DNA from: Fragilaria crotonensis
Taxonomy: Eukaryota > Bacillariophyta > Fragilariophyceae > Fragilariales > Fragilariaceae
Assembly (NCBI GenBank): GCA_022925895.1
Contig: JAKSYS010000305.1
Coordinates: 1 to 64,000 of the forward strand
Length of the DNA: 64,000 bases
Direction of reading: 5' to 3'
The notes below the pieces were generated by a model. It searched no databases. It was not told where the DNA came from and worked only from the letters and a program-made list of their open reading frames with translations. A program made the translations under genes and the position numbers. This document shows, piece after piece, positions 29,185-39,589 of this stretch; the first letter of the stretch is position 1; every line of letters starts with the position of its first letter.

Positions 29185-32100
29185 CGATGTATATCTAGCC
29201 GCTCATACTGTTGGTATGCTGTGTTTACTATTGTGTGAGCGACCCATACATTCCATAGAAAAAGGCAAACTTCGGGGAACATCGAAGATATTAAAAAAAT
29301 GTAACGACACGTAACCTAAAGCCATAACAAACACCACAATCAAGTTACCTCCCAACCCTCTGTCGACCCATTGCCAGGAGGTTGTCATCAGTTCGCGCAC
29401 CTGTTGCAGGTCAGACATCACATCGCCTTGGATTGTATCGATTTCTTTCTTCACTCGATCCATTTCGTCTCTATCAGAGGCCATCTCTCGTCTCAATTCT
29501 GCCTTCAGGGTCTTAATGCTAGTCTGGATTGCCTTCAGCTGTCCCAACTTTTGCTTTTCAAGATCAGAACGAGAAATCGCAGTCTCCTTCTGGACAAAAA
29601 GGTACTCGCGAATCTGGGGTGGCCAGAGGACGCCAGCCGTTACCAAACCTGCCACGATCCAAAGTGGGATCACAAACAGAACTGCCGCACCTTGAAAGAA
29701 AAAGTAACACCAGAACTCAATGTTCTGAGGTTTGAGAGCGATATCATCGTAGAGATTCTGATCGAATAGTTGAACAATGCTCTTCCACCCTTGGCGGAAT
29801 AGATCCTTCTTTTGCTTCGCATCAAGTATGTCCGACTCTTTACCAGCAGAATAGGGCCCCTCCTGAACCTGAGCGGGAGCCCCAAGGGCACCACCTGCTC
29901 GATCGCCACCCAGAAACTTCATTCGCTGACGTAAACCGTACGAAACTGCATCTGTCTCAGCAACGAAATCCAATCGATTGCTCCAAAAAACAATCGAGGC
30001 GCGGTCGTTCTGGATGATTTCATACGAATCAGTTACAATGGCGATCAAGACGTTGGAGAGCAGAATCACAACCAAGAATGCGTAGGCGACGTAGAGAATC
30101 TGAGCTGCCAACGAGGACTCATAGCGCGTCTCATCTGTTTGCCCCATCATCATCGTGTACACTTTCAGCAAGGATGATGCGAACGTGCAATGCGGAAAGA
30201 CACAAGCAGTTTCATCCGGAGGTATTTCACCCATTGGGCAGATATCGGTATCCGTGTAGACGATGAAGAACATTTGTGCGAACGCCAACAAAATGACGCC
30301 CACAGCCATTAAGAAGGCAGCGAGACGTTTCAAGACATAAAAAACACCCCCCACAAAGACAGCAAAATCGACCAGTGTAGATTTCAGGAAATAAATCACA
30401 GCGCACCACAAGATACCTTTCGTGAAGGCCACTCCGCTTCGGAAACTATCATCCGAAACAGCCCACGTCGTGTTGGTCATAAGGATAGAGTAGAAGTACA
30501 CTAGGACAATGACTGCCATATCCAGCCAATTTGTTGGATCATAAAACCAACTCGAGACCGACCCGAGGGACCAAAGGGAGATAATCTGAACCAACTCACG
30601 GAGCAGGAAGTAAGTACCACCAATGAAAAGAATAATCAGCGGGACGACGGAGTCCGTTGGCTGGTCCAGGTATCGTGCGTCGATGTTATCCCTAGTTGCA
30701 ATCTCGAAGCAAATGATAATGAGCATTAGGAAATAGCCATCCATCATCAGGATTGCAGTGGGGAATCTCTGAACAATCTTCTTGTTGAGAATGGTGCGCA
30801 CATGAGGACTGACAACGGCAACGTCTTGCAACCAGTCAGGAAGATCCTGAAGGGCAGTCAGAAAGTCGGCGGAGGCTACAGGCTCGGCTGCTAGATACAT
30901 TTTCAAGCACTCAGAAACGTTGCTTCGCTGGTCGGGTTCGTCCGCTTTGAATCCCCTCAATCCAAGCGCCAACAAGTGTAACGGCAAGTAACCATCGTGA
31001 TCGCGCAAGTTGACGAGCTCAGAACCAGCGTGCTGAAGCAGGAAATTAATAACGCCTGGCGAGGCATCTCGGTGGGCATTGACCATCGCCAAATGCATAG
31101 GAGTGCGTCCCTTGTTTTCCTTGGCAATCAGAGAGTCCGGATAGGCATCCTTGAGAACTTCCAACACCGCAGGACTAACACCATATGCGCATGCGTAATG
31201 CATCGGGAGCATCCCGCCCACGTCTGGCAGTTCTGCCGCTCCAGAGTCGGCCAAGTAATCGCGCATGTTGGATGCCATCGCCGCCGAGTTGTCGGCACGT
31301 TGGGTTAAGTAGAAATGAAGTGGCGTACGATTCTGAGAATCCTGTTTGGTTTTTCCTGCGGGGTAGGCATCCGTCAGAAGCTTCAAGACATCCTTGCTGG
31401 CACCGTTGGCACAAGCGTGGTGCAAAGGCAACCAACCGTGGGTGTCGGTCCAAGTGACAGTTTCTGGAGCAAACTGCAAGAGTGCCTGCACGATATCCTC
31501 AGGAGGGTTCGCAAGCTTGCAGACATTGTGCAAGGGGGTGGCATCGTAGTTGCCACGGACAGTCGCGGCAGCTTGGCGTACATCTGGGTCTTGGTGTGCC
31601 CAGAGCCACTTCCGAATGCGGTCCCAAGTCTGTTCGACGAGGGCCTTGCGCTGATTCGCCTCAGCCGCAGTCAGCTGGCGATTTTCGTTTGGACGAGGCG
31701 TGCCCTCCTCGATTATAACAAAGAGACGTGTATGCCCCAAATCAGACTCATCTGAAGCTTCAGAATCGTTGTCCTCGTTGTCGTCTCGCGAGATATTGTA
31801 TTCATACCCTAGTGGAGCGTTGCGATCACCGACAAAGGAATCCCGGACTTCATTCCGAGCGTAATTTACGTCCGTGTGATGCTGTTGATACGAAGACATT
31901 CCGGAATCGCCACCAGCGGGCGGTCTCACTTCAGTTCTAGCTTCAAGTCCAAACGAACCCTGGCGAGATATTCGTCTATTCACTTCGTCGTTATCGGTCA
32001 TAAACGTCGCGTTTGACCGTGTTTTGCACTTAGCCGACAATCTGGTCGCAGATCAGGATGAAGCGCACAAGGATCGCTCTTCTGTCTTCTTGGTTTACTC

Positions 32101-32241
32101 CGAGTGGTGACGAGGCCTAAATTGGCAAATGTGTCAGTGAATGCTACTGTGTGTAGCAAGCAGCGAGAGTCTATTTGCACTACCCTCTCCAAGAGATAGA
32201 TAGCAGAGAGAGCAGTCACTGATCAGTTCCGCAAGTTCAAG
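28466..32241. repeat. segmental duplication, copy 1
   Basis: This segment contains the end of glycosyltransferase exon 1, the intron, exon 2 and the whole channel gene. It is repeated in the same orientation at 42492-46268 with scattered substitutions and a few small indels. Homology resumes beyond the MULE insertion at 39318-39344, matching 46269-46295, so the original duplicated block ended there. Copy 1 keeps both genes open and copy 2 does not. Confidence 0.95.
29203..32001 (-). CDS. ankyrin-repeat ion channel (TRP/ion_trans-like), copy 1
   Basis: The intact single-exon frame is 932 aa from ATG 32001. The N-terminus is acidic and disordered. Ankyrin-type repeats fill residues of about 140-335 (DATPLHNVCKLANPPEDIVQ, HGWLPLHHACANGASKDVLK, GGMLPMHYACAYGVSPAVLE, GRTPMHLAMVNAH). 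A six-span channel domain follows at about 415-660 (including MAVIVLVYFYSILM, AAFLMAVGVILLAFAQMFFI, a pore-like TFASSLLKVYTMMMG and FLVVILLSNVLIAIVTDSYE). Another hydrophobic span (LFVIPLWIVAGLVTAGVLW), a coiled coil of about 70 residues and a C-terminal span follow. The architecture resembles TRPA-type channels; ion selectivity is unknown. Transcription converges on the glycosyltransferase. Confidence 0.85.
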   Translation of the reverse strand: MTDNDEVNRRISRQGSFGLEARTEVRPPAGGDSGMSSYQQHHTDVNYARNEVRDSFVGDRNAPLGYEYNISRDDNEDNDSEASDESDLGHTRLFVIIEEGTPRPNENRQLTAAEANQRKALVEQTWDRIRKWLWAHQDPDVRQAAATVRGNYDATPLHNVCKLANPPEDIVQALLQFAPETVTWTDTHGWLPLHHACANGASKDVLKLLTDAYPAGKTKQDSQNRTPLHFYLTQRADNSAAMASNMRDYLADSGAAELPDVGGMLPMHYACAYGVSPAVLEVLKDAYPDSLIAKENKGRTPMHLAMVNAHRDASPGVINFLLQHAGSELVNLRDHDGYLPLHLLALGLRGFKADEPDQRSNVSECLKMYLAAEPVASADFLTALQDLPDWLQDVAVVSPHVRTILNKKIVQRFPTAILMMDGYFLMLIIICFEIATRDNIDARYLDQPTDSVVPLIILFIGGTYFLLRELVQIISLWSLGSVSSWFYDPTNWLDMAVIVLVYFYSILMTNTTWAVSDDSFRSGVAFTKGILWCAVIYFLKSTLVDFAVFVGGVFYVLKRLAAFLMAVGVILLAFAQMFFIVYTDTDICPMGEIPPDETACVFPHCTFASSLLKVYTMMMGQTDETRYESSLAAQILYVAYAFLVVILLSNVLIAIVTDSYEIIQNDRASIVFWSNRLDFVAETDAVSYGLRQRMKFLGGDRAGGALGAPAQVQEGPYSAGKESDILDAKQKKDLFRQGWKSIVQLFDQNLYDDIALKPQNIEFWCYFFFQGAAVLFVIPLWIVAGLVTAGVLWPPQIREYLFVQKETAISRSDLEKQKLGQLKAIQTSIKTLKAELRREMASDRDEMDRVKKEIDTIQGDVMSDLQQVRELMTTSWQWVDRGLGGNLIVVFVMALGYVSLHFFNIFDVPRSLPFSMECMGRSHNSKHSIPTV

Positions 32242-32247
32242 TGGAAA

Positions 32248-32317
32248 TGCCTAATTCGCTAACGATTAATGCGCTATCAAAAACGCTAAACCAATAAGAA
32301 TCTGCCGCGACGTCATC
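32248..32317 (+). repeat. left TIR of the MULE
   Basis: It begins TGCCTAATTCGCTAACGATT, continues through TAATGCGCTATCAAA and ends near GACGTCATC. By eye it pairs with the reverse complement of 39229-39300 at roughly 80 percent of positions. Confidence 0.8.
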
Positions 32318-32556
32318 GGGGAAAGGGGCCAAAACAGTCATCTGATGATGTCATAATCATATACATGTATCGTTATACATATTCAAATGGCACGCCGGCA
32401 TAACTTATTCGATATTCGCGCCCAACTTTGAAATTGAATGTACTTGAAATTGTACGGCTGCACCATTTTCAAATACGAGTGCATTCGTGAAAGTTAACAA
32501 CTCTCACTCTCACTATTAACCAGCACGACATCAGCACCTCTTACCCACTGCAAGCC

Positions 32557-35500
32557 ATGGAAATCACTCCTATAGAGCAAGAAGAATGCACGTCAACCGC
32601 AACTGACATCTTCTATTCTCAAGCAGAGAAGGAGAATTTACATCTTATCAAGAAGGAATTTGACGGAGAGTTCCCTGTCGGAGCTGTGTTTGCAACAAGG
32701 AGGGACCTGATCGATGCAATGCGTCAAAAGGCAACGAAGTTTGGATTCTTTATTGTTGACCGCGGAATGGCAGCTTGTTGTTCTGAAACAACATCAAGGG
32801 ATGCCCAGGATGCACGAAAACAGCTAGGACGGGAATTGGCTGCTCAGAGAAATGGAAAAACCTATATGCCGCGAAAATCTGCAAGATCAAAGTGTGGGTG
32901 TGAATTCAAGATTAACTTTACCGGGATGAAGGGCAGTGAACTGGGAGGAGTTAGAATATCGCATGTGCAATTTATGCACGGAAAGGGGTGTAAGCCTTCA
33001 GGGGAACAATTCAAGGCAGCATGGACTAGTGGTGGACATGCATCAAGGCACCTTGCCCGCACTCAGAATCTTAAGCTGCACACCATTGTCCAGCTTCTTG
33101 CAAGTGAACAGAAGCCAAGTGCCAGAATGATGAGAGGTTTGCTTCGCGATATGTTGCCAAAAGATTTTGACGTGTCCAGCAAATTCATAAATAATGTGAA
33201 GACCAAGGTCAAGTTGAAGCTGATGAATGGTGACTTTGATCTTCTCCTGTCGGAAGGAAGAGTCTCAGAGGGAGATGTGGAGTTCATTTTAAGTCCTAGT
33301 GACAATCTACCTCCAGAGTATCTGTCTGTTGCGCAGGACATCGCAAATGAGACATTAAAGGAGGCACTCTCTGATCCCGGAAGTATGTGCTTGGTGGTTC
33401 AATACCTCTGTCGACTGCATCAAGAGGATCCATCTTTTCTCTTTGACATTCAACGTGATCAGAATGATACAATGGTTGGAATTTGCTGGCAAACAGCCAC
33501 AATGAGGTTTGACTGGGACACCTGCGCCTCCTCGATTGCATTAGACGGTATGAAACGCAAGCTAAACAGCTTTTGTTACCCGTACATTGCTGTCACTGGT
33601 ATTGATGGATATGGCCACATGGTTGTGTGTGCCGAAGCCATTGTGATATCTGAGCGGATCGAGGCTTACGCATGGCTGCTTCGGTGCTGCAGTAACTTTT
33701 CATGCAAACGAAAGCTAGACAGCATTCATGCTATCTTTGGTGATGGATTAGTAACTTGCGACAGTCTGCTCGCATCCCTTGGCATTCAAGATTCATGTTC
33801 CCTCCTTGATGATGTGCACCATTTATTGTCCCCTGAGTGCGGTACATGGTTTAAACAATTTGGAGCCAGCAGATGGAACCACTATGGTGGATTGCTGCGA
33901 TCTTTGGTTTTTGAGTCCTACTCCTTGGATGCCTACGAGACTATAAGGTCCAAGATTCTAGCAATGATGGATTGTCGTGGTGAGCCTCAAAGTCTCTTAA
34001 ACTATTTCAACAACGTCATTCATGTTGCAAGGAGAAGATTTGCACGCTACTCTGTCAATGCAATACCCTGTAACGAAGAACGTCTTGGATCTTCAATTGC
34101 GGAGGCTAACCATTCATCTTATGTTGCTCGCATCGGGGGTGGTAGCTGGGATGATCCTGCAATGCAGGTTAAGGACTGCATCCTTCGCATGCAAGAGCTC
34201 GCCAATAAGAGGGCAAGTATCCGAGACCAGTACAGGCGACAGAGTGCAGCAAGCAGTCACACCACATGCGATAAAACCCTTGCCCTTATGCTTGTTAAAC
34301 TGTCAAAGCGCGGATTCAAGATCTGCAAAGAAGAATACAAGAAATCATCAGGATACTACTGCTCACTGCTGAGTGGTGGCGGAGAACAAAAGGAAGTGCG
34401 ACGGATTGGGGATTCATCCCAAAGGGCTCGCCTTGTCAATGGATCTAAGTGCTCATGCAATGTCTTCGTTGCATATCAGATTCAATGTCGACATCTCTTT
34501 GCATTTCATGGTGAAGAATTCAAGCTTGGGCTCGTTGATTCCAAGTTCCACGCCCAGCCATTGTCAGTATCGTCCCGAATCCAGATTACACCACTATCCT
34601 GTCAGCTTGGTCTGTAACCAGGGACCCTTACATTGGCAGTCTCGGCGATAAGTTGTTCTGTCGGCAGACTGCTCCTGTGCTGTCAAGCCCACCCAGAAGA
34701 CCTACAAGCCTGCCGGCAGAGAAGATGGATGCGAAGACAATGATCCTTTCCAAGACTATCATGATGCTGGGGAAGGAGATGCGATGTGCATTTGGAAAGA
34801 ACCCGACCTTGAGAGTATCGAACACGATTCTTGCATTCTCGTCAACAACACAGCAACTTCAGTTCTACCGGTAGTCAGGAAGAGGAATGTGACCTTCCGC
34901 GATTTTACTGATGTTGCGAACAGTGTTGCAAATCTAGCACTAAGTCTTCCAAATGAAGATGCAAGAATGGAATGCCTAGGTGTCTTGGTTCGGATGAGAG
35001 ATGCCTTGAGTTTGTCCGCCAGTGGCCAGCAGCAAACTTCTTCCGTTCCATTTCTTGGATTTATGTCGTCTGCTGAAGAATTTCTTGGGGCATTCGGGCC
35101 GAATGCCGAATCTCGGAAAGAAGGCATATTTGCTGAACACCACAACAGTAATTTTGAGATGCAGCGACACAATATCGGTAAGGTTCGGCAGAAGCGACTT
35201 AAATCACTGAACGAGAGGAAAGCACACGGAGCAAAAAGCAGCGGACCCTTGTCGATGGAACTCTCTCAAAACCTTGTTCCTCATTTGGCTGATGCACGTA
35301 GCAGGCAGGCACAATGTTCGTATTGTGGTTCCTGTCAGCACACGATCAAGCGGTGCTCTAAGATGGACAAGGTGGCTTTTGTTGGGAAGAAGAACAGTGC
35401 CTCCTGGAATCGATGGTATCGTACGTTGGGGAATCAAAGTCACCACGATGTAGTTGTGCCCAATGCTGGGTGCACCTTGAAACTTAATCGAGAGCTCCAA

Positions 35501-35959
35501 CAAGACATTCCATCTCCCTCTCAGATTATTCGTCATCTGTCCATTAAAGCAGTCTTCTATTCTTCAGAGGCTATCGAGTTTATGTCGCGACCTACCAGCA
35601 TATACAGATCCAAGAATCTGCAGAACACCCACATTCCATCTCCGGACAACAATATTGTTGAACTCCAGCTTATTGAGCGCGGTGGAAACTTTGTTGTAAA
35701 GCAACATGAAACTGCTTGCAGGGTCGACAGGAAGTTAATACCACTTTTTATACACAAGCAAAGACAGTTCAGAAATGGATGGAGAAAGCATCCAGCGATT
35801 CACACTTGTTTGTTTACGTCAAAGCAAAGGAAACATAGGTCCTTGAAGAGTGCCGTCCAACAAGAAAGCGAAGGCATATGGAACGAACCACCAAAGCGTA
35901 TGACATTCCCTTGGTTCTCCATTTGGTTCCGCTTGGACAAGCAACTGCAACAGATTTAA
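32557..35959 (+). pseudogene. MULE transposase (FAR1-like, MULE core, SWIM, zinc knuckle), frameshifted
   Basis: The first frame (32557-34617) gives 686 aa from ATG. A FAR1-like DNA-binding region lies at about residues 40-150 (SKCGCEFKINF ... GKGCKPSGEQF). The MULE core follows at about 300-450 (ASSIALDGMKRKLNSFCYPY, ITVTG-like IAVTGIDGYGHMVVCAEAIV). A SWIM finger comes next (Cys632, Cys634, Cys644, His646 in SKCSCNVF...QCRH). After the SWIM the natural frame moves to one giving ILSAWSVTRDPYIGSLGDKL (34596 on) and again, by about 34710, to the frame that runs to 35959. That frame contains a CCHC zinc knuckle (CSYCGSCQHTIKRC, near 35314). Together this would be one protein of about 1,130 aa broken by two 1-nt shifts. 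Confidence 0.75.
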
Positions 35960-36042
35960 TAGTGAGAGCCTATATGTACCAACAAAGGAGCAGCGATAGC
36001 CACCACCTTCTTCCACCACGTTAAAAACACATTGCGTCCGTA

Positions 36043-37975
36043 CTATGCATTCGTTGCACTCCGCTCCGCCATATCCCGCCGCAACGATATGGTTCTTCCA
36101 GCCTGAAGGACACTCTCCTTGGCGACACTGAATGAACCAAAGCACAAGTTTGGTTCCTCTGGGCCATTTGTTTGCCCTGTAGTGTGCAATGATGTACAGT
36201 GCCGAAGCACTCGTCCATCCCAACTGATAGCAACACCATGTGACAGTTTCACAGCCAGGCCCAAAAAACGATTCCCATTCCCATCAACACCCACAACATT
36301 TGGCATTAGGAAGAACCAATTTTTTGCTGCCCCAGGAATTGTCTCGGTCCACACTGCAAAGCCCTGCGAGGCATCACCACAATCAAAATGGGATGCATTG
36401 CCCAGGTTGACACTCATGTCAACCGAATACCCAACACGGCCAAAATGACCATCACCCCCCATTGGTGACACGGGAAGCAGGCCACTATCTGCCTCCAAGT
36501 CCTGGATGACGGTGAGGACATCAGGAAAGCAATGCCGACCCACAAGTGCCAGCGACCGAACAAATTCGCGCAACACCTCATCAGGAACCAAAGCATTTGT
36601 TGTGTAACTGCTCGTTGACACGCCGTCCTTGTGTACCCGAGTTCCAATGGGGTGCATGGTCCCAACATCCCCCCTCCCATTCCTCGCACCGCCAACGGCA
36701 CGTTCACGGGCAACAACCGCATTGTGGGAGTTGATGTTATCCAATGCTCTGCCCACCAACTGCCGACCCCCATTGTCAAGAAGTGACAGAGAGTTTCTGA
36801 TAAGAATCGCAGTCTTCCTGCCTTTCATGTCACACCGATCAGGAGATCCACCATAACATCAAGAATTGGAGTGACACACGGGTCCACAATGCAGCACGTA
36901 GACGGCACACAAAAGTAGTGGCATCCAACTGCATAGTGACCCCCACCATAGCGCACAGAGTTCGATCCGGCTAGCCGGAGGTTGTACAAGGCTGCCCGAT
37001 CAGCAGCCGACCACTCGCATGGACTTCCATCGAAGACATCCGGAGGCAAAGCCGGTCCGTCAGCATCGTGCAGCTGCCTAGCACACCGAATTAATCGATG
37101 CTGGTGCACCCCTTCAATATGCGATCTAACTGTCAGCGACACCCTCCATGCAGAACTACGATGATGCAGGCGTTTCACATAACCTCCCTGCCCGAATTCA
37201 CTTCCACCACTAGCCAATCGTAACCAACTCAAGTCCAGTGGAATAAGGGAGTTTGCACGACCAACTGCATTACTCCGACGCTCCCGAGCACAGTAGAAGG
37301 CCCTGCCGACGGAATGATTGCGATCACTGTTCTGAAACTCCCGTCTGCACAGTCTGCAATTTCTTCAGGTCCAGAACATCCAACAGGAACAACAGTCCCT
37401 GCCCGTATGGCATGTTCCCTCACAACAGGGACATATGAGCAATTCAAGATAACATCCATCACTATAAAATTGTGATGGAATGGGGTTGTGACCTCTGATT
37501 GATAGAACACATCCTCAAGCGAGCCCAATTGTTCGATGTGGAAGCCAGGCAACTCAGCACCCCCAGGAAACCATGCATATAAGCCATGGAGAGCACCCCA
37601 AATCCAACGTACGGGGGTCATGCATAGCATAGGTTCACCAGCATGCAATGCACGCGCACCCGGTTCAGTCACATATTGAGAGAAGGACTCCCCAAACCCG
37701 GCTCTGAAGTCTCCAGGCAAACACTTGAGTAACACAGCCAAAACCTGGGCCTGAGATGGACATGATTTACGAGCTCTCCTGACCCGTGGTAACACCCCTG
37801 GCACCCTACTCGCACCCTGTGACATCTGTGCCGCACTAACAAGCCTTGGTGTGTCCCCAAGATTAAGGATCGATGAGCGACAAGGATTTGTTTGCCCACT
37901 GGCGCTCAGGAGATAGTTGCTGGCATTCACGGGAAACTCCCCCACTCCCTCCATACGTTCATTGCCCCCATCCAT
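36043..37975 (-). pseudogene. second MULE gene: candidate 2-oxoglutarate/Fe(II) dioxygenase-like protein, frameshifted
   Basis: Three minus-strand segments (to 37229, 37232-36825, 36828-36043) overlap by 4 nt and read as one protein of about 650 aa once two small indels, near 37308 and near 36845, are allowed for. The last segment has the pattern of a double-stranded beta-helix oxygenase. An H-x-D pair occurs in NLGNASHFDCGDASQGFAVW (His codon at about 36390-36388). A distal His follows 63 residues later in HGVAISWDGRVLRHCTS (about 36201-36199). That spacing and order fit 2OG-Fe(II) dioxygenases such as the TET/JBP group, known in some fungal transposons. The assignment is inference from motifs. 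The N-terminal half (for example LLKCLPGDFRAGFGESFSQY) is unrecognised. Confidence 0.5.
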
Positions 37976-38024
37976 CCTTCCACAAACTCCAGCCACCGTA
38001 TCCTTCAATGAGAAAATTTCTCAA

Positions 38025-38825
38025 GTATCTTGTTGATCAGAAGGCAACGTCGTTACAACAATTTGAGCAAGTCAGAAAGAAAGCTGCGGGTCGAAACCAC
38101 TGTATGGCAGTGACAACCACAACGTTCAGTCGTCGTTGATCACAATTGATGATAACGCAGTAACCCAATGATGACGTCCAGCAGCAGTCAAGAGCGTTAC
38201 CGATTTGCGTCCAACAATTTGCGCAACTCAGAAAGAAAGCTGCAGGTCGAAACCACTGTATGGCAGTGACGACAGCAATGTTCAGTCGTCGTTGATCACA
38301 ATCTAGGACAGCACAGTAGCCTCAACGATGACGTCCAGCACAGCAGCAGAGAGCGTAACTGATTTGCGTCCAACAATTTGCACAACTCAGAAAGAAAGCT
38401 GCAGGTCGAAACCACTGTATGGCAGTGACGACAGCAACGTTCAGTCGTCGTTGATCACAATCTAGGACAGCACAGTAACCCCAACGATGACGTCCAGCAC
38501 AGCAGCAGAGAGCGTAACCGATTTGTGTCCAACAATTTGCGCAACTCAGAAAGAAAGCTGCAGGTCGAAACCACTGTATGGCAGTGACGACAGCAATGTT
38601 CAGTCGTCGTTGATCAAAATCGAGGACAACGCAGCAGTAAGCCCAATGATGATGTCTAGCACGGGACTGCGACAGAGAGGGTAGCTGATTTCCGTCCAAC
38701 AATTCACACCGCTCGTGTTCAACGATTTGCTCAAGTCAGAAAGAAAGCTGCAGGGCGAAACCACTGTATGGCAGTGACGACAGCAACGTTCAGTCGTCGT
38801 TGATCAAAATCGAAGACAACCCTCA
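38025..38825. repeat. about 159-bp subterminal tandem repeat of the MULE
   Basis: Five units are marked by AACCACTGTATGGCAGTGAC at about 38095, 38251, 38410, 38569 and 38759, giving spacings of 156, 159, 159 and 190 bp. Each unit also contains CAGAAAGAAAGCTGCAGG and GTTCAGTCGTCGTTGATCA. Degenerate outer units explain the spacing differences. The array lies between the 5' end of the dioxygenase-like gene and the right TIR. Confidence 0.85.
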
Positions 38826-39228
38826 ATGATCCCCTTGGCAGATAGTAGTCAATGGGGATTGTGTTGTCTGACACCAACACAAATCAAAACGGAGCAATGA
38901 GAACAACACAAGCAGCAGCATCAACAGTAAAAATATTATAATGCTGCAAAATGGTGGCAAAATAAGTGCAACATTGTACTCCGAGTACCTTGCAGTACTC
39001 TGAGTACGAACGTATACTACAGCCGCTTCCAGAATTTCATGCCTCCCGTACATAGCAGTACAATTGTAAGGCATGCCAAGAGTTTGGGTTCGAAATTTTG
39101 GAAACCGGGCCGGCGCCAATCTTGCCATGTAAGAGAGATACACATGAATTTTTCTATATGAAGACGTATGTTTCTTTTTTTCATTTAAAGACGGGGGTGC
39201 AAAAATTCATTGACGAGGAGACTCGACA

Positions 39229-39300
39229 TGATGACGTTGCAGCGGAATATGATTGGGTTAGCGCTTTGATAGCGCATTAGTTGTTAGCGCATTAGGCACT
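39229..39300 (-). repeat. right TIR of the MULE
   Basis: This is the reverse-complement partner of the left TIR. On the minus strand it reads AGTGCCTAATGCGCTAACAA, then CTAATGCGCTATCAAAGCGC and further, ending near AACGTCATC. Confidence 0.8.
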
Positions 39301-39589
39301 CTCAGTTCAAGTTCAAGCCTGTTTTGACTCTTCACAGAACTGGATATGAAGAGTGTGAAATGCGAAAATTCTGTGCGGTACTACCGGTAGTAGTTTTTAT
39401 ATCCAGTTCGTACTTTTACCGGTATTGTGATCGTGCTGTCGTGGAGTACCACCGTATGCATACTTGTGCGCTAAACAACTACCGGTAGTACTAGGTTTGC
39501 ACTCTCCAGTACCGTAGATTATTGATTCTTCTCATAAAGAACACACACACAAGCATGTGGTCATTTCCTATTTCTCAGAACTTGTAGAC

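Follow-up and report, generated by a model that had tools for sequence, protein, structure and literature searches.

What does the second gene of a diatom Mutator-like element (MULE) encode, and why do other transposons have the same gene beside them? The question is raised by a 64,000-nucleotide stretch of Fragilaria crotonensis DNA (contig JAKSYS010000305.1 of assembly GCA_022925895.1; hereafter, the window), in which a MULE combines a transposase gene with a passenger gene on the opposite strand. An earlier sequence-only reading had seen in the passenger the motifs of a 2-oxoglutarate (2OG)/Fe(II) dioxygenase. The best explanation, in which we have moderate confidence as a whole, is that this is a recently active MULE with a TET/JBP-related oxygenase that would be nuclear, act on DNA and counter silencing, its gene being exchanged among MULEs and Plavaka-like transposons. 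Genome-wide counts below refer to the 62.1-Mb assembly of 881 contigs; they are lower bounds for each search tool, and duplicate contigs inflate the numbers of places and copies.

A two-gene element and its copies

The element and its transposase comprise the following features.

32243..39303 (strand not applicable): complete MULE, delimited by terminal inverted repeats and a 9-bp duplication
32234..32242: left target site duplication AGTTCAAGT, 9 bp, a direct match to the right flank
39304..39312: right target site duplication AGTTCAAGT, 9 bp
32243..32317: left terminal inverted repeat; 32248-32317 matches 39230-39298 at 83% over about 69 nt
39230..39303: right terminal inverted repeat, an inverted match to the left end
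32491..34617, + strand: N-terminal and catalytic part of the transposase with a SWIM-like end; the frame is broken after it in the window copy
34652..35959, + strand: C-terminal part of the transposase with zinc-knuckle-like CSYCGSCQHTIKRC, joined to the first part in sister element L016

The inverted ends are 82% identical over 49 nt (32233-32281 and 39265-39313), and since these arms take in the duplication AGTTCAAGT, the element proper spans 32243-39303. The element recognized in the sequence-only reading thus stands, while its ends lie a few bases inside the limits given then (32242..39307). Both genes between such ends, with matching duplications in the flanks, were found in the window, at an insertion site seen on contigs C782 and C88, and in the sister elements L013, L016 and L018. 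The duplication is 9 bp long at all of these sites except L018, where it is 8 or 9 bp; none was seen at L019, and L014 and L015 showed only one end.

The two plus-strand open reading frames (ORFs) form one transposase gene, because L016 (contig C63) reads both as a single 1114-aa ORF. In Pfam the window transposase matches MULE (PF10551; E 4.4e-4, 21.1 bits, below the cut-off of 27.6) and SWIM (E 0.0068, 16.4 bits against a cut-off of 19.6), with CxC...CxH visible in the sequence, and a ZSWIM RNaseH-like family, also below cut-off. In a second MULE lineage of the genome, represented by L029 (contig C592), the MULE domain reaches 46.3 bits, above the cut-off. Given the inverted ends and the 9-bp duplication, alongside these domain matches, we take the window element for a MULE with a SWIM-like transposase end, as had been proposed; MULE target duplications measure 8-11 bp (PMC6446971).

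Matches of 99% to the window element occur at four further places in the assembly. Three of them (L003, L005 and L002 on C782, C88 and C659, respectively) have a common flank, which reads TGGACGGAA or its complement; they represent a single insertion present on three contigs, either haplotypes or duplicated contigs; the flank on C724 differs. The window family therefore occupies at least three insertion sites, and five independent copies are ruled out. Over about 7 kb the copies differ from the window element by 14-17 substitutions and by as many as 38-81 gap positions. This combination suggests that the elements moved recently and that the assembly is rich in indels, so that many frame breaks may be assembly errors. 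The element sits just upstream of a minus-strand ankyrin-repeat ion-channel gene (29203-32040; Ank_2 E 1.8e-15, Ion_trans E 1.4e-7), whose listed start is about 200 bp from the left end.

Conservation, spread and exchange of the passenger gene

The passenger is convergent to the transposase and has the following parts.

37232..38020, - strand: N-terminal frame, from the ORF list and comparison with sister copies
36828..37364, - strand: middle frame, overlapping both neighbouring frames
36046..36858, - strand: C-terminal frame with the oxygenase-like domain, holding the candidate ligands
36382..36390, - strand: HFD, candidate Fe(II) ligands H157 and D159, from alignment conservation
36190..36222, - strand: WDGRVLRHCTS, candidate distal ligand H220, from alignment conservation
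38026..38848: five tandem copies of about 159 bp each, upstream of the passenger frame and largely open on the - strand

The three overlapping frames belong to a single gene of about 650 aa, since in sister copies the reading continues through the junctions: their open frames extend over 698 aa in L018 (contig C108), 620 in L013, 999 in L015 and 1159 in L016. Use of an unbroken relative for joining the segments had been advised. The conserved core consists of the C-terminal 190 residues. The N-terminal part is variable, with tandem repeats in some copies; the in-frame N-terminal repeats of L014, L015 and L016 are other than the 159-bp units of the window.

Conservation was assessed in an alignment of 32 rows (28 distinct), without L026, which has an internal stop, and the broken frames of L002-L012, L014, L021-L024 and L027. 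H157, D159 and H220 are invariant (32/32), which bears out the H-x-D and the distal His noted 61 residues after the Asp; conservation of these residues among homologues had been set beforehand as a test. The spacing is 61 residues in the window and 61-67 across the family. Likewise unvarying are E172, W181, W213-D214-G215-R216, R219 and T222, and further charged residues are invariant or nearly so (D124 and D147 in 32/32 rows, D162 in 31/32, K247 in 31/31). We picked H220 as the candidate distal ligand because it never varies, whereas H207 is conserved in 30 of the 32 rows and is Asp in the other two. The latter, L214 and L218 (C30, C121), are divergent passenger copies with the distal motif GWDGRLIRHGTS. 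An assignment with H207 as distal ligand and R216 as 2OG anchor, which would give a CcTet-like spacing, is disfavoured by these two rows and by hhalign, which chose H220 (see below).

The gene is also under purifying selection. dN/dS is 0.09-0.28 in the nine pairs between families or subfamilies that yielded a dS; in five of these, dS exceeds 1.7 and is near saturation. For two more pairs dS was not computable, and one near-copy pair gave 0.40. Values of about 0.2 indicate that the passenger is maintained as a protein.

Protein searches of the genome returned 85 and 145 matches to the passenger, merged to 135 places. The commonest neighbour type found within 5 kb is a Plavaka-like gene, typified by L034 and L224 (42 places), followed by an Ulp1/MuDR-DBD gene (26, at 20 of them alone), the window's transposase type (18) and the second MULE type (9, six of them also with the Ulp1 gene). 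Regions no more than 5 kb from a passenger make up about 2.4% of the genome, which gives a chance expectation of 0.3-1.9 per marker. Counted from the side of the markers, a passenger lies within 5 kb of 18 of the 21 window-type transposase entries, 25 of the 53 merged Ulp1 matches and 44 of the 79 Plavaka-like entries; the latter derive from 100 matches with second fragments mostly dropped, and since a few contigs keep two, not all are separate loci. For the second MULE transposase, 63 of the 116 matches were used, giving 57 merged loci, 10 of which lie within 5 kb of a passenger; the best 12 of the 57 entered the proximity count (10/12). At one further window-type locus, on C592, the passenger was found only by tblastn (L014), bringing the total to 19 of 21, all convergent; the loci on C385 (a fragment) and C353 have no passenger listed.

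Homologues thus do stand beside MULE transposases, which the sequence-only reading had made decisive. The pairing of a MULE with this passenger, as proposed there, holds; the gene is not specific to MULEs, the Plavaka-like gene being the commonest neighbour found. The full-length Plavaka-like example, L224, matches PF18759 below cut-off (E 9.1e-5, 22.3 bits; cut-off 26.3), and the shorter L034 protein, the other member compared, has no Plavaka match in Pfam. L033:2-1174 and L034:2-1180, on the minus strand, hold a common gene of about 390 aa (VTHRIQNLVKKVIFRKLKFV) near two passenger copies, with no Pfam match above cut-off. Ulp1-type protease genes (PF02902) stand beside the passenger at L026:2263-3768 and L032:6124-8001. 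The occurrence of the passenger beside apparently unrelated kinds of transposon suggests a shared tool. Outside the genome, no relatives were confirmed in viral contigs or GTDB genomes and none was found in phages; two plasmid matches (E 5 and 6) were taken as chance.

Comparison of gene trees indicates that the passenger has moved between elements. In a transposase tree computed without the piece from L017, a branch with support of 97/99 unites the window transposase with those of L016, L013 and L015, and its identity to that of L016 is 81% over the first part and 63% over the second. For the passengers, identity of the window copy to these three elements is only 37-39%, but it reaches 68-74% with L025 and L028. 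At C346 (99%) and C579 (97%), the second MULE type has a near-copy of the L025 passenger beside it. In the passenger tree, the window joins L025 and L028, and the L016 group joins passengers found at Plavaka-like loci, on branches with support of 100/100. A tree constrained to unite the passengers that go with the window's group of transposases is worse by 126 log-likelihood units (AU test, P = 0.000118). The conflict between the trees means that a swap between elements has taken place, in which one of the two lineages received a new passenger.

The nature of the passenger protein

The passenger family was compared with TET/JBP enzymes by profile alignment. The template consisted of the CcTet segment and 12 phage proteins found with a TET/JBP-like stretch; two of these proteins are annotated as a Tet-like J-binding protein and a Fe2OG dioxygenase, the rest as SNF2, oxidoreductase or hypothetical proteins or not at all. 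hhalign aligned the family with this template over 116-118 columns and, unprompted, matched the two HxD motifs to each other and RHCTS to the distal His of the template. The score of 22.0 compares with a mean of 12.9 (s.d. 2.6) for 300 column shuffles of the template, two of which scored as high, and with 11.8 for the reversed template; depending on the rows used, scores range from 22.0 to 28.2 with the ligands in register. Against the same template, known 2OG proteins gave 59.6 (YbiX), 30.5 (PiuC family) and 20.4 (AlkB, out of register), and among 27 ORFs of a cyanophage stretch the 2OG enzyme PiuC gave 26.4, the maximum of the other 26 being 20.95. The passenger family would accordingly sit just above presumed unrelated proteins and at the weak end of true relatives, a weak resemblance in which the right residues are aligned.

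Several observations weigh against an oxygenase of this kind. Pfam searches found no match for 10 passenger proteins at E 5, PF12851 included, and neither a 2OG family nor PF12851 for seven passenger domains at E 10, a level at which HMMER filters drop most matches above 0.1. No relative was found in the PDB by phmmer or profile search. The hhalign match is weak by its P-values (0.0018, 0.013 and 0.016, by rows used), and the lowest came with a hand-typed row in the template, which was removed for the score of 22.0. Compared with the passenger family directly, AlkB scores 30.8, higher than TET/JBP, in an alignment that misses the active site. YbiX and the PiuC family give nothing in this comparison, and the other 12 controls score 9.6-14.5. 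The slot that usually holds the 2OG-anchoring Arg or Lys appears by eye to be hydrophobic in the rows that reach it. An AlphaFold model of the single window sequence has a pLDDT of 30.5 and is unusable. Finally, none of the four markers lies within 5 kb at 46 of the 135 passenger places.

The family searches themselves work, since the TET/JBP-like stretch found both PF12851 (2e-11) and CcTet. When PF12851 (Tet_JBP) and PF20515 (2OG-FeII_Oxy_6) were searched against the genome there was no match, with controls equally silent, so that absence is not shown. Dismissed as chance-level were the Pfam matches of single domains to RUS6_N, CsgE, OprF and DUF7693 (E 0.027-0.22), an NCBIfam antidote model (18.4 bits against a cut-off of 46.2, three passenger proteins searched), and, in the PDB, TcdA-type chains (phmmer, E of at least 0.2) and two unrelated proteins (profile, E 0.061 and 0.19).

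Taken together, we consider it fairly probable that the domain is a beta-helix of the 2OG/Fe(II) type, and about evenly balanced whether DNA bases are its substrate; that it belongs to the 2OG/Fe(II) superfamily is likely, if unproven. The earlier assignment therefore survives in its conserved triad and its weak in-register match to TET/JBP and lacks a Pfam family and, as judged by eye, the usual anchor in the 2OG slot, for which the invariant R216 and R219 and K247 could substitute. Of the checks then suggested, Pfam speaks against a 2OG family and the single-sequence structure prediction speaks neither way. Similarly weak HHpred results (E 1.4 and 19) were obtained for PE-type TET/JBP proteins, a case settled by predicted structures (PMC12730594).

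Among the alternatives, the one that survives best, which we regard as unlikely, is a non-catalytic accessory protein comparable to mudrB or VANC, which would aid transposition or block silencing by binding DNA, with H, D and H in structural roles. MULEs with extra ORFs are known, including mudrB and the anti-silencing vanC (PMC6446971), no enzyme family in Pfam or NCBIfam matches the passenger once chance-level matches are set aside, and basic stretches lie near the N-terminus in L018 and L025. On the other hand, the most conserved block is a polar, catalytic-like set (H157, D159, H220, R216, R219) that aligns with TET/JBP in register, and a gene that adjoins different transposases is hardly a transposase-specific cofactor.

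Slightly less probable again is another metal enzyme, either a cupin-like jelly-roll oxygenase that takes some other co-substrate, or a hydrolase or nuclease that employs H, D and H. The hydrophobic anchor slot and the additional conserved charged residues (D124, D147, D162, E172, K247) would suit it; against it, the H-x-D...61...H spacing agrees with the TET/JBP pattern, as does a Gly that precedes the distal His by 12 residues, and the Plavaka-like association parallels that of fungal TET/JBP.

A further reading, to which we give a little less credence still, is a separate diatom class of DNA-modifying oxygenase, kin to TET/JBP at the level of fold only, with a remodelled co-substrate site; traded by MULEs and Plavaka-like transposons, it would make a modified base that host silencing misses. 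With no canonical 2OG Arg, such an enzyme would perhaps use another co-substrate; Chlamydomonas CMD1 is reported to use vitamin C.

A motif arisen by chance, in a non-coding stretch or in a fragment captured from a host gene, to which the broken window frame and the tendency of MULEs to acquire host fragments (PMC6446971) might point, is refuted by the 135 merged places, a dN/dS of about 0.2, sister copies open over 620-1159 aa and retention of the gene at 19 of 21 transposase loci.

Proposed role and known systems

On the preferred reading, the product of the second gene would be a distant relative of TET/JBP, an iron-dependent jelly-roll oxygenase of the 2OG/Fe(II) type. The predicted protein is probably nuclear, with DNA as its target; the element would likely have it oxidise methylated bases on its own DNA, and this oxidation would weaken silencing and let the element escape. 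The gene is one of a large family carried and exchanged by several MULE lineages and Plavaka-like transposons of the diatom, and the shared passenger may help mobile DNA to resist silencing. The limits of the element, its two genes, the conserved putative ligands, the purifying selection, the occurrence next to several transposase types and the conflict of the trees are observed directly; fold, metal, co-substrate, entry into the nucleus, DNA as substrate and the part played against silencing are inferred. A methylated-base substrate is plausible, since the genome has 13 matches to the C5-cytosine methylase family PF00145; it also has seven AlkB-type matches to PF13532, a different family. As a separate observation, silicon-transporter matches number 19 (best E 4e-193), in keeping with a diatom, and at C97:29749-33762 three silicon-transporter units lie in a single open frame of 1456 aa.

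If the proposal is true, the solution found by fungal transposons with TET/JBP arose or spread in stramenopiles as well, MULEs gain a possible enzymatic counter-silencing gene, and the search for modified bases in diatom DNA has a definite starting point. A 2014 study reportedly tied TET/JBP to fungal transposons. The pairing seems novel, as had been claimed: a literature search, which covered titles and abstract openings and left most subscription papers outside, gave no report of such a gene in MULEs or diatoms. The available text of PMC12730594 contains neither 'MULE' nor 'diatom', and the single 'MuDR' passage available comes from the introduction.

The closest known parallel is in fungi, where TET/JBP genes are indeed passengers of mobile elements, as the sequence-only reading had stated. 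They are carried by Kyakuja, Dileera, Zisupton, Plavaka, EnSpm, hAT, IS3EU, Harbinger, ESTA and Helitron elements, and anti-silencing has likewise been proposed for them (PMC12730594). The best reading of the passenger is as the putative diatom counterpart of these genes, in MULEs. In both systems one putative oxygenase gene stands beside several unrelated DNA-transposon transposases, Plavaka included, has apparently been handed between elements, and conserves H-x-D...H (H-x-E in one fungal type). The present system differs in its diatom host and in carriers that include MULEs, outside the 11 lineages listed in PMC12730594. The diatom family also differs in having no Pfam Tet_JBP match and a hydrophobic residue in the usual place of the 2OG Arg, and in its Asp-to-distal-His distance of 61-67 residues, compared with 48 in CcTet (counted on the CcTet segment).

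Among MULEs, the window element shares with MULE-Diatoms and others a putative SWIM-type transposase, terminal inverted repeats and a target duplication within the 8-11 bp range. The MULE-Diatoms table row gives no/no indicated duplication and apparently one ORF (PMC6446971), whereas the window element has a 9-bp duplication and a second, conserved and exchanged gene. An Arabidopsis MULE with an anti-silencing gene is known (PMC6446971), and VANDAL/Hiun elements with VANC resemble ours as MULEs with an extra gene thought to counter silencing; VANC is set apart by its description as an anti-silencing protein, with no oxygenase mentioned in the passages available (PMC6446971). Sola1-1_Ec32 of the brown alga Ectocarpus is, similarly, a transposon of a stramenopile whose accessory gene and transposase lie on opposite strands. 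Unlike the window MULE, it belongs to another superfamily, and its accessory product is described as a two-domain protein of 1104 aa (PMC12477816).

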